Below are positions 27,619 through 30,585 of a DNA stretch of 32,991 nucleotides, piece after piece. Each line of letters starts with the position of its first letter. The first letter of the stretch is position 1. Below the pieces are notes generated by a model. The model was not told where the DNA came from and searched no databases. It worked only from the letters and a program-made list of their open reading frames with translations. Both the position numbers and the translations under genes were made by a program. The stretch spans positions 1-32,991 of the IMG/VR virus record IMGVR_UViG_3300042691_004597. The stretch is one strand, 5' to 3'. The DNA is from a virus.

Positions 27619-29376
27619 CTAATCAATTGGTTCATATTGGCGTGATAACGTGTTGAAACTGAACGATGTAAATCCAATTTTGCCAATCCACCACCAACGA
27701 ATTTTTTGAACATAGGCCGTGACAACGTTCGTTTCAAAATCTCGATAGATCGTCAACCCGTTGTCCGTCTTGTTGAAAAAATTTGCTGATCCGCTGATTG
27801 AATACATGGTCGGAACCTCATATTTTCCGGTTGCTTTGTCTTTTTGTAATTTGGTCGGGTGTGCAATTAAAAAAATATGAATGCCCAATTTCCTGGCTGC
27901 CATCCGGATTTTTGAAAGTACATCCGAAATGTACTGCGTTTCGGTGTAACCATTCGGAACTTTATGTTCGATGTAATTCCACGGATCAATCAACAATCCT
28001 TTGATTCCTTTACGCAATACCAATTCAGCGGTTTTGGCCAATATGCCGTCAATGGTGATGTCGGCCTCCATTGTATTGATAAAAAAGAAATTGTCCGATA
28101 AATAACCCGAAACCATTTCCAACTCGAATTTTGAAATTCCGGTTGCTGATTTGTTGAATGGTTTTTCGGATAACTTTTCAATCAATTTGGTTGCATGGAA
28201 TACCGGCGGCGAATTCTCAAATGAACAAATGGCCCATTTCCAACCATGATTGACCGATGTTTTCGCCATCAACCAATCCGTGAATTCCGATTTTCCCGAT
28301 CCTGGAATCCCGGTGATTGTTGTCAAATCACCTGGCATGAATGAAATCAATTTGTCCAATGAATCAATTCCAATCTTTACACCTGGCGGATATCCGTTTT
28401 CGTACAAATCAAAGATTTCGTTTTCCAATGTTTCACGTTCAACAATGCCCTTGATTGGAAACGGAATCGCATTTTCAACCATTGATTTCACGGCATCGCG
28501 TCCGTGTTTGATCAGCACATCATTGGCATCCTTGCAATCATTTGGATATTGGATGAACGAACATTTTTCAATCCCAAAACGCCTGGCTAATTCATCTTTG
28601 AGATTTTGCCCCACCTGGTCGTTGTCGGTCGCAATGATGATTTGTTTTTTGTCGATGAAATACTCTGCGCAATTGTCAAGGTATGGCAATTTCATCACGC
28701 CCTTTGGTGTTGTGCCATTGGGAACGCTTACAACGTTATAAATGCCGGATTCATACATTGACATTGCATCGATTTCGCCCTCAACAATGATGGCCGTTTC
28801 GGTGTCCTTGATTGCGTCAATGTTGTAAAAAATCAATTCAGCATCCTTTGCCAATTTGAAATCCTTTCCAGGGCCGCGGAACTTGATGTTGATTAATTCC
28901 TCATTGCGGAAATAATTGAAACAAACGACATTTGTTTCCTTTTGCGCCTTCGGCATCCACTCAAACGCCTGCGATATTTTGAACCTCAACAACGTGTTGT
29001 TTGATATGCCACGGCCTTCAAAGTATTCAATGAACTTTGAATGGATTTTTTCCAATCGTTGAACCGGACGGATGTAATCCTTTGAATCCTTGTCCAATTC
29101 AAAATTGTAATGTTTGGCCACATGCTCAACGGCATCATTGAAATTGCAATTCGTATGTTTCATCACGAATGCAAAAACATCGCCGGATTCACCGCAACCG
29201 AAACATTTGTAAAAATTCCCGTTCACCGGTATTTTGAACGATGGCGTTTTTTCATTGTGAAATGGACAATGTCCGACAAAATCCGATCCGGTGCGTTTCA
29301 ACTTGATGAACGTTTCGACAACTTCCGAAACCTTCGCAATTGCTTTCAATTGCATGATTGATTCATGGCTGATCAT
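27619..29376 (-). CDS. Primase-helicase fusion, T7 gp4-like
   Basis: From ATG 29376 the protein is 585 residues. That start overlaps the previous stop (ATGA), which favours it over an in-frame ATG at 29412. It has a CHC2-type zinc finger (C37, H40, C58, C61; HCPFHNEKTPSF and CFGCGESGDVF). The TOPRIM core has E199 in IIVEGEID and D251/D253 in ATDND. The RecA-like helicase half has Walker A GIPGSGKS (356-363), Walker B-type GLLIDPWNY and LIAHPTK. It primes and unwinds at the fork. No DNA polymerase gene is present, so host polymerase is presumably used. Confidence 0.92.
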   Translation of the reverse strand: MISHESIMQLKAIAKVSEVVETFIKLKRTGSDFVGHCPFHNEKTPSFKIPVNGNFYKCFGCGESGDVFAFVMKHTNCNFNDAVEHVAKHYNFELDKDSKDYIRPVQRLEKIHSKFIEYFEGRGISNNTLLRFKISQAFEWMPKAQKETNVVCFNYFRNEELINIKFRGPGKDFKLAKDAELIFYNIDAIKDTETAIIVEGEIDAMSMYESGIYNVVSVPNGTTPKGVMKLPYLDNCAEYFIDKKQIIIATDNDQVGQNLKDELARRFGIEKCSFIQYPNDCKDANDVLIKHGRDAVKSMVENAIPFPIKGIVERETLENEIFDLYENGYPPGVKIGIDSLDKLISFMPGDLTTITGIPGSGKSEFTDWLMAKTSVNHGWKWAICSFENSPPVFHATKLIEKLSEKPFNKSATGISKFELEMVSGYLSDNFFFINTMEADITIDGILAKTAELVLRKGIKGLLIDPWNYIEHKVPNGYTETQYISDVLSKIRMAARKLGIHIFLIAHPTKLQKDKATGKYEVPTMYSISGSANFFNKTDNGLTIYRDFETNVVTAYVQKIRWWWIGKIGFTSFSFNTLSRQYEPID

Positions 29377-29756
29377 AAAATCATTTTTGGTTGTTCCGGT
29401 TTCGCGTTCCATCTTTTTTCCATTCCAATTTTTCCGGCCTTCGACCTGGCGGATTTCAATTCCTTGTATTGGTTCATTGAACGGATTAAACGATCGGAAA
29501 AAAATGTTTCATCCTCGATCAAAAAAAGATCATAACCACGAATAACGGCCTCAACCTTTTCCTTTGAACAATTGATTGAAAAACCGATGTCGTCAATGGA
29601 TTCAATCGGCAATTTATTGCCAGGTGCATCGCGTAACATTTCAATCAATGCCCAATAAATGCCATATCCCTCCATGCCTAATTGTCGGCGCAACTTAATG
29701 ATTTTGACATCATTTCGCGCGTTGCTATCATGCGAAAAATAAAATGATTCTTTCAT
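29373..29756 (-). CDS. Lin1244/Lin1753-type (DUF4373) replication-associated protein
   Basis: A 127-residue protein starting MKESFYFSHDSNARNDVKII, then QLGMEGYGIYWALIEML. These match the N-terminal domain named Lin1244/Lin1753-like (DUF4373), common in phage replication initiators. The C-terminus KAGKIGMEKRWN also occurs in that group. Its ATG stands six bases past the U-run of the structured RNA at 29761-29870, and its stop overlaps the primase start. A role as initiator or helicase-loader partner is likely from context. Confidence 0.75.
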   Translation of the reverse strand: MKESFYFSHDSNARNDVKIIKLRRQLGMEGYGIYWALIEMLRDAPGNKLPIESIDDIGFSINCSKEKVEAVIRGYDLFLIEDETFFSDRLIRSMNQYKELKSARSKAGKIGMEKRWNAKPEQPKMIL

Positions 29757-29760
29757 AAAA

Positions 29761-29870
29761 TAAAAAAACCCAAAGGAATGGAACCGGTGAAAGCAATCTT
29801 TGCAGATTGGCGGCTCCGCCCCTTTGGGCGTTAATTAGTTTTTATTCGTCATGCTTTCACCTATGACGCT
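29761..29870 (-). ncRNA. Structured RNA with pseudoknot potential and terminal U-run (candidate attenuator, riboswitch or sRNA)
   Basis: Minus-strand elements in order: P1 CGTCAT/ATGACG (29868-29863 with 29852-29847). Its loop holds GGTGAAAGC (29861-29853), an exact 9-bp complement of GCTTTCACC (29794-29786). P3 CCCAAAGG/CCTTTGGG is at 29828-29821 and 29776-29769. P4 GGCG/CGCC is at 29820-29817 and 29812-29809. P5 CAATCT/AGATTG has a GCAA tetraloop (29809-29794). Seven Ts then run 29768-29762. P2 and P3 interlock, as in a pseudoknot. P1 and P2 compete for the same bases, so a two-state switch is possible. A TATCTTTG promoter box lies just upstream, and the next ATG is at 29756. I do not recognise a known family. 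Confidence 0.75.
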
Positions 29871-30330
29871 ACAAAGATACGATTTCAAAATACAAATCAA
29901 AAAATTCATCCGGTGTTCCGATGAACTCATAAATTCCGCCGGCGTTCCGTTCCCGGATTTGTTCCGATAATTGATCCGGCCGCGGTTTGTCGCGTCCGAC
30001 TTTGATTTCGATCATCACGGAACGGCCTTTGATGGTTGCGGATATGTCCGCGGTTCCTTTCCTGGTTGATGATGGAATCCATTTTTTCACGCCGACCTTT
30101 GCGCCGGATGGTTGTTTCTCAACGCCATCAACCAGGCGGCCGGAAACGTTGATCCTGGTTGCCCGGTGATTCATCCAGGATAAAAAATTGCAAATGAATG
30201 TTGTCAATCCGTTTGCGGTGTCAACCTTCGGAATTTTTGGTTCCAAATAATACCCGTCTTTGTAGGCCTCCGGATATTTGATTTTGAACCATTGTTCATG
30301 TGCTGATTGATAGCGTTGTTTGGGTGTCAT
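29869..30330 (-). CDS. VRR-NUC-like nuclease
   Basis: A 153-residue protein starting MTPKQRYQSAHEQWFKIKYP. The core is GTADISATIKGRSVMIEIKV followed by GRDKPRPDQLSEQ. This has the PD-(D/E)XK-type acid in ADIS, the EIK motif and the downstream Gln, in the order seen in VRR-NUC proteins. They cut branched or replication-fork DNA. It overlaps the small gene upstream by four bases. The promoter for the structured RNA lies inside its last codons. Confidence 0.75.
   Translation of the reverse strand: MTPKQRYQSAHEQWFKIKYPEAYKDGYYLEPKIPKVDTANGLTTFICNFLSWMNHRATRINVSGRLVDGVEKQPSGAKVGVKKWIPSSTRKGTADISATIKGRSVMIEIKVGRDKPRPDQLSEQIRERNAGGIYEFIGTPDEFFDLYFEIVSL
29872..29901 (-). promoter_or_regulatory. Bacteroidetes-type promoter for the structured RNA
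   Basis: On the minus strand TTTG (29901-29898) precedes TATCTTTG (29879-29872) by 18 bases, matching the -33/-7 pattern. The predicted start near 29868 falls at the first base of the P1 stem, just past the VRR-NUC stop codon (29871-29869). Confidence 0.6.
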
Positions 30331-30536
30331 TTGGAATAGTATTCATTATAAAAATCTTCAGCCATCAACAACGCATCCGGTTTTTCCATGTCGGTTGTGC
30401 CGTTCCAATATGCGTTCATGATTTGTTCCTTTTCCATTGCTTTTGCTTTTTGTATTGCTGAATGATAATCCGATTGATAGGCAATTGGATTTTCTTTACT
30501 CCATTGTATAATCCAATCAACTGCCGTTTGTGTCAT
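30327..30536 (-). CDS. Small hypothetical phage protein
   Basis: A 69-residue protein starting MTQTAVDWIIQWSKENPIAY. The centre has IQKAKAMEKEQIMNAYWNG and the end has AEDFYNEYYSK. This sequence type is very frequent as a small frame in Bacteroidetes phages and prophages, with no known function. It overlaps the next gene by four bases and follows a terminator. Confidence 0.7.
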   Translation of the reverse strand: MTQTAVDWIIQWSKENPIAYQSDYHSAIQKAKAMEKEQIMNAYWNGTTDMEKPDALLMAEDFYNEYYSK

Positions 30537-30556: not shown

Positions 30557-30585
30557 AAAAAAGGGCCACCATAGAAATGGCGGCC
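30557..30585 (-). terminator. Intrinsic terminator after the SSB-like gene
   Basis: In the minus direction GGCCGCCAT pairs with ATGGTGGCC (one G-T) around TTCT at 30585-30564. A C and six Ts follow. It separates the recombination genes from the nuclease and primase genes, so downstream genes need read-through or another promoter. Confidence 0.85.

Follow-up and report, generated by a model that had tools for sequence, protein, structure and literature searches.

A recurrent promoter-linked leader RNA with a covarying loop–loop contact ahead of replication genes in Bacteroidota phages: a candidate transcription attenuator

The window (the whole stretch of viral DNA analysed, 32,991 nt) carries a compact element on its minus strand, located between a nuclease-like ORF and a replication-initiation gene of the Lin1244_N/DUF4373 type. 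Its parts come in the order TTTG-N18-TATCTTTG, hairpin P1, an A/U-rich linker and a long hairpin ended by U7. The upstream ORF encodes 153 aa and is weakly matched in PHROGs by families of endonucleases and Holliday resolvases, and the putative promoter overlaps the 3′ end of this ORF (stop codon 29871–29869). The features of the locus are the following.

29872–29901, minus strand: putative Bacteroidetes-type promoter (TTTG 29901–29898, N18, TATCTTTG 29879–29872), read from the sequence
29847–29868, minus strand: P1, the 5′ hairpin (CGUCAU 29868–29863 / AUGACG 29852–29847), present in the MFE and centroid folds and covarying in relatives
29853–29861, minus strand: loop A, GGUGAAAGC, inside the P1 loop, the exact 9-nt complement of B; the kissing helix covaries
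29829–29846, minus strand: A/U-rich linker between P1 and P2, AAUAAAAACUAAUUAACG; similar linkers, often AAACTTATT, occur in relatives
29769–29828, minus strand: P2, the closing (terminator) stem (CCCAAAGG 29828–29821 / CCUUUGGG 29776–29769), from the fold; the equivalent stem abuts the U-run in relatives
29780–29817, minus strand: P3 (GGAGCC 29817–29812 / GGUUCC 29785–29780), flanking the interior that bears B, from the fold; the equivalent in group C covaries
29795–29808, minus strand: inner hairpin AAUCU-GCAA-AGAUU, from the fold; a variable accessory absent from most relatives
29786–29794, minus strand: B strand, GCUUUCACC, the complement of loop A, read from the sequence; the kissing helix covaries
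29762–29768, minus strand: U7 run, an intrinsic-terminator-like end, read from the sequence
29373–29756, minus strand: downstream gene, Lin1244_N/DUF4373 replication-initiation protein, 127 aa (Pfam and PHROGs)
27619–29412, minus strand: next gene of the operon, primase/helicase, 597 aa (Pfam DnaG zinc ribbon, Toprim and DnaB_C; phrog_239)

The 127-aa protein matched PF14297 (E = 1.3e-11) and phrog_2562, ‘replication initiation protein’ (E = 1.8e-17). The leader RNA is about 105 nt long, and the A–B pairing can be stretched to 10 bp by using one base of P1. The inner hairpin varied in two relatives (L003 and L004), and P3, used by the MFE fold, competes with a hairpin, GGCG-GAGC-CGCC, drawn in an earlier sequence-only reading of this DNA. 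That reading had described the layout accurately, except that the gap between the U7 run and the ATG (29756) is five bases and not six and that its shared-base helices did not stand. It had proposed a two-state switch between P1 and P2; only one base of P1 could be shared, and P1, P2, P3 and the A–B helix can coexist in the predicted structure, A and B being loops. A plain terminator-like hairpin, GGCCGCCAUUUCUAUGGUGGCC then CUUUUUU, lies elsewhere in the window (30564–30585, minus strand), about 28 nt upstream of the ATG of the ORF at 30327–30536; it has no obvious P1 or kissing partner and is possibly a reduced form of the element or an ordinary terminator.

The RNA fold of the window element had an energy of −39.6 kcal/mol (z = −4.8), and none of 200 shuffled sequences was equally stable; the terminator hairpin was stable in RNA folding without the kiss. 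When the promoter was kept and the next 150 nt were dinucleotide-shuffled 2000 times, the architecture score of the window (36.5) was never reached, the shuffle maximum being 29.5. We regard the existence of a structured RNA at this locus as practically certain. The 9-mers of A and B had no further occurrence within the window. A DNA similarity search of phages with the window sequence returned nothing related. Rfam 15 at gathering thresholds left the element unmatched in the window, in 20 relatives, in 19 further loci and in the phage lillamy9-1, in agreement with the earlier reading, which knew of no described family with this layout. A simple terminator scan did not list the window hairpin because its loop is longer than 8 nt. 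The pattern GGTGAAAG...CTTTCACC, tried in viral contigs, was rejected, being self-complementary in unrelated DNA with almost no promoter-linked elements at those loci.

In IMG/VR loci coding for a relative of either the DUF4373 protein or the primase, the same layout stood at the same place, built from other sequences. Their loop pairs include CGUGCCGG/CCGGCACG, GUAGAAGC/GCUUCUAC, GUACCAG/CUGGUAC and GUUGCAG/CUGCAAC. In two of these loci (L006 and L007) the DUF4373 proteins are 94–95% identical to that of the window and the flanking DNA is about 80% identical, while the elements are entirely different (loop A is GGUGAAAGC in the window vs CGUGCCGG in L006). The TAnnTTTG motif was found at the same position ahead of P1 in most relatives; in L012 (GUAGCAU/AUGCUAC), for example, the layout comes with no consensus promoter. 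Despite the drift of loops and stems, AAACTTATT is a frequent reading of the linker that precedes the terminator stem (alignment A2 columns 43–59, e.g. L048 and L076), and the same string was seen in the otherwise unrelated members L003, L052 and L299.

The layout, with other sequences, was also observed ahead of the replication genes of cultivated phages, namely Flavobacterium phages lillamy, morran, mumin and snusmum, Cellulophaga phages phi10:1 and phi19:1, Tenacibaculum JQ, Olleya Harreka_1 and, by eye, Nekkels_1. The lillamy-type stretch is common to 46 records. Loop sequences vary between sibling Flavobacterium phages that share hosts, with kissing pairs such as GUGAGACG/CGUCUCAC, GUGAGAAG/CUUCUCAC and GUGGAACG/CGUUCCAC. 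In the group with the best sampling, A and B each make up the entire 7-nt apical loop of a hairpin of its own, and the four helices are mutually compatible. The element was not detected in PJN03, Flavobacterium phage 1/32 or P. gingivalis phage005b, where scan scores were near background. Since the list of 45 members was hand-curated by requiring a perfect A–B pair, its 31 distinct loops illustrate diversity and are not statistical evidence.

Recurrence was measured with a scan anchored on promoter and terminator, which superseded first scans that were too permissive (one gave mostly false positives). Scanning for a promoter, P1 with loop A and a terminator with B gave 54 matches, redundant loci included, at a score of at least 29, vs 2 in dinucleotide-shuffled DNA of the same loci. 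An element-like match lay within 400 nt upstream in 45 of 77 DUF4373 viral loci, vs a shuffled mean of 0.45 (maximum 2). A covariance model, R1, was built from group C alone, with the kiss and the window left out. In 417 kb it produced 25 matches with E ≤ 1, each of which fell on an element known from the architecture scan or by eye. The window was the second-best of these (35.5 bits, E = 0.0019, the E-values being rough and the promoter and U-run included in R1 adding to the score).

The tests of covariation were carried out with the pseudoknot as stated. In group C (24 distinct sequences) 94.4% of the cells paired vs 75.6% after shuffling, two-sided changes were present in 17 of 24 pairs and the covariation score was 0.482 vs 0.146; on each measure, none of 500 shuffles reached the observed value. 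The kissing helix of this group taken alone covaried in 5 of its 7 pairs, with up to four pair types, and the P3 equivalent showed two-sided changes in 6 of 7 pairs. Such changes were also found in 5 of 6 pairs of the P1 stem in alignment A2 and in 11 of 28 pairs in group D. In the Flavobacterium group 100% of the cells were paired and 3 of 8 kissing pairs had compensatory changes; with n = 5, the cells paired, double-changed cells and covariation score exceeded the shuffles, and the numbers of pairs and pair types did not. As judged from these alignments, compensatory change maintains P1, the A–B kissing helix and also the terminator stems. On comparative grounds the element is a real RNA family that recurs, has covariation in its support and is, as far as our searches show, new. 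The promoter-driven RNA with a loop-mediated pseudoknot that had been predicted from the window was supported, with homologues that covary. A plain terminator that insulates the upstream gene, with a loop complementarity due to chance, would account for a U-run that follows a G+C-rich stem shortly past the end of an ORF. It is refuted in practice by the covariation of the kissing helix and by the recurrence of the layout, the promoter moreover sits between the end of the ORF and the hairpins, and we give this explanation almost no weight. The possibility of a ligand-binding riboswitch, raised earlier, was not supported because the conserved columns are mainly those of the promoter, the linker and the U-run/ATG, with no conserved unpaired core beyond promoter, linker and U-run, and the loops and stems drift with compensation.

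The element heads early operons, mostly of replication, with genes for replication initiation, primase, RecT, homing nucleases and methyltransferases. Directly behind it stand genes for DUF4373 and DUF7833/DnaD-like replication-initiation proteins, or small ORFs and then these; other genes found in this position encode RecT, a helicase-methyltransferase, a methyltransferase, NUMOD4-HNH and GIY-YIG nucleases and a pentapeptide protein. Where a small gene was inserted (L003, L041 and L074) the element was still at the head of the operon. Nearly whole DUF4373-type contigs (the window, L007, L028 and L049) contained one true element each, and several Flavobacterium-type contigs contained at least two with different loop pairs. 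When R1 was run over 395 Bacteroidota genomes, a match was obtained in just one, the MAG from which the model had partly been built; there was no sign of a cellular family with this model, which is tuned to one group, and we therefore call the element a phage element.

Several further observations concern the neighbourhood of these elements. Extra copies lie directly ahead of NUMOD4/HNH homing-nuclease genes (L063:4598-4720 and L340:1961-2050), and in L064 an element precedes a GIY-YIG gene; the leader may travel with homing nucleases or may have been taken over by them. The small ORFs (62–78 aa) often found between the element and the DnaD-like or DUF4373 gene (L003:478-678, L041:2795-2995, L074:2803-2988, L326:10381-10596 and L327:36091-36324) in several cases share a similar helix-like C-terminus, and gp024 of phi10:1 matches an unknown PHROG only. 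A conserved block, approximately TTTAATTTAATAGTTATAGGTAATCTTAAAACC, precedes a start codon in Flavobacterium, Cellulophaga and Olleya phages (L326:10337-10381, L329:14204-14252, L354:1640-1695 and L357:1501-1541) and sits behind the terminator of the element where the two adjoin. A different recurrent promoter-linked hairpin, approximately TATATTTG...AACRTTGTGAAACANAGGTTT, was seen in Flavobacterium phages (G020:C1:19958, G008:C1:7392 and G009:C1:9150).

The spacing between the element and the gene behind it bears on what the RNA does. In most DUF4373-type members the U-run ends 8–15 nt before the start codon, whatever gene follows, and for this reason a separate sRNA, suggested as one of the options in the earlier reading, became less likely. 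An independent stable sRNA or structural RNA, in which the kiss makes a compact fold and the gene behind is not controlled, would fit with an own promoter-like site, a terminator-like end and 5′ and 3′ structure as in stable RNAs. The tight spacing across unrelated genes speaks against it, as do the lack of a conserved unpaired target-binding sequence and the several different copies per genome, and we consider it unlikely.

The same spacing could mean that the hairpin and the kiss beside the ATG control the access of ribosomes, the U-run being part of an A/U-rich start region. Starts in Bacteroidota are generally A/U-rich, and the gap of only five bases in the window agrees with such a translation-level leader. 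Against it, T-runs of at least 5 within 25 nt upstream were present in only 7 of 34 window ORFs, and the DUF4373 gene was alone among the listed window ORFs in having T7 directly behind a stem. Moreover, the ATG lies 23–51 nt beyond the U-run in the Flavobacterium, Cellulophaga and Tenacibaculum phages, so that a terminator fits better than translation control. As the whole explanation, control of translation appears quite improbable to us, although in the DUF4373-type members the stem and U-run beside the ATG could serve it in part.

The element is best read as a cis-acting leader RNA and, with somewhat better than even confidence, as a transcription attenuator tuned by an intramolecular kissing contact. 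A promoter-proximal hairpin and a U-run are located inside the leader of the downstream operon, and the terminator-like 3′ end lies directly ahead of the replication-initiation gene. The cis attenuator, already proposed from the window, stays the best reading. Transcription would start just ahead of P1, and P1 would fold first. In most members B ends 10–22 nt before the U-run, which is about the length of RNA covered by RNA polymerase; B should thus leave the polymerase at about the time when the U-run is made, and the capture of B by A would coincide with the decision on termination. A would capture B before the terminator hairpin is complete, and whether this contact forms would set how frequently the polymerase terminates or continues into the replication genes. 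We lean slightly towards early capture delaying closure of the hairpin and favouring read-through; the opposite sign is somewhat less likely. The kissed form would be the end state in the released RNA. Candidate modulators are a phage or host protein that recognises the kissing complex by its shape, the speed of the polymerase and an excess of leader RNA. The need for the kiss we infer from conservation alone.

The main rival to this cis attenuator is control in trans of copy number or superinfection, in which terminated leaders would accumulate and their free A or B would kiss the nascent leaders of other genome copies, causing termination of the replication operon. It would resemble the CI RNA of satellite phage P4, and the loop sequence would define compatibility groups. 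In both systems a phage replication operon lies behind an untranslated leader, and RNA–RNA complementarity governs premature termination in P4 (PMC4825925); the leader with a terminator upstream of primase genes is as in P4 (PMC4825925). The wholly different loops of close relatives, such as the window and L006 with their similar flanks, and of sibling Flavobacterium phages on the same hosts would also be in agreement with action in trans. However, a single RNA carries both A and B, so pairing in cis should win. P4 uses three complementary segments (seqA, seqB and seqC) and a processed trans-acting RNA and works in lysogeny (PMC4825925), whereas the window has one complementary pair, A–B, in one short leader, with no third site and no segment complementary to two leader segments as seqA and seqC would require. 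Lysogeny genes were not detected in the window: a search of 20 of its proteins yielded neither an integrase nor a repressor. The loops are not consistently faster-evolving than the stems either: substitution in group C was 0.25–0.31 in the loops vs 0.37 in the P1 and P3 stems, and in A3 it was 0.23 vs 0.06–0.15. When A and B of seven phages were searched as trans targets, they recurred near chance expectation in most genomes; A somewhat exceeded it in two of the seven (7 vs 1.5 plus 2 in the L007 contig and 18 vs 6.6 plus 2 in the L049 contig). We hold action in trans to be rather unlikely. A related idea, that the loop is an address, with each operon and phage lineage having its own orthogonal A–B pair and released leaders counting transcripts or genomes and shutting the matching operon, that of a superinfecting relative included, is speculative and in our view improbable.

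The cis attenuator was also compared with other leaders of replication genes. P4, pT181, the IncI/IncB leaders and putRNA of HK022 each have one part of its logic in common with it. Attenuators of the pT181 type resemble it in their kissing loops, in the hairpin at the 5′ end and in the intrinsic terminator that follows ahead of a replication-initiator gene (PMC4878617). Judged by sequence features, a putative intrinsic terminator is present here upstream of the replication-initiator gene. The staphylococcal plasmid pT181 works with a countertranscript, and the 5′ half of its terminator stem is sequestered by an antiterminator (PMC4878617). Here no antisense promoter was seen (no antisense TAnnTTTG in 20 members, other promoter types being possible), and the complement lies in the interior loop of the terminator and not in its stem: B is between the arms, and no pairing with the 5′ half of the stem was found. 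In ColIb-P9 translation is switched on by the pseudoknot, and a leader peptide and an antisense Inc RNA take part; the present element differs from the IncI/IncB type in its terminator-like end and in having no conserved leader ORF. A leader peptide was considered and rejected by inspection, the 5-codon ATG frame of the window being shorter or absent in relatives such as L006. The loops of ColE1 RNAI/RNAII are fully complementary 7-nt apical loops on short stems that pair between sense and antisense molecules; group C has 7-nt complementary loops alike, both of them in one RNA. The IncI/IncB rep leader (ColIb-P9 RepZ pseudoknot; references within PMC10724649) is alike in that the loop of a 5′ hairpin pairs with a strand farther downstream, in front of a gene for a replication initiator.

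Two phage RNAs were also considered. The present element includes a terminator and shows hardly any conservation of sequence, whereas for putRNA of HK022 we know of no terminator of its own, and putRNA acts on the polymerase directly. What the two would have in common is an effect in cis on termination in the early operons of phages (PMC9378689). The Rfam DUF805b RNA (RF02914) is likewise a short leader-type motif in the same Flavobacterium phages; it is 35 nt long, conserved in sequence, located elsewhere in the genome and without a match to the element. This RNA (52 bits) was found between genes of lillamy9-1 (L329:12781-12815) and morran9-1 (L354:199-233), in the same early region.

A search of the open literature, with subscription papers and preprints outside its scope, for a kissing-loop leader in Bacteroidota phages returned nothing relevant. 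To our knowledge, no described attenuator has a 5′ hairpin that kisses the interior loop of the terminator under near-complete turnover of sequence. A study of RNAs from the human microbiome reports palindromic candidates from Bacteroidetes phages (PMC8040213). The element looks like an undescribed class of gene switch. It represents an RNA class outside Rfam that recurs among the phages of a major bacterial phylum, and little is known of how phages of this phylum regulate their genes. The element precedes the genes that start DNA replication. Its presence in cultivated phages of environmental Flavobacterium and Cellulophaga makes it directly testable, and the natural orthogonal loop variants would be ready-made parts for programmable control of transcription.
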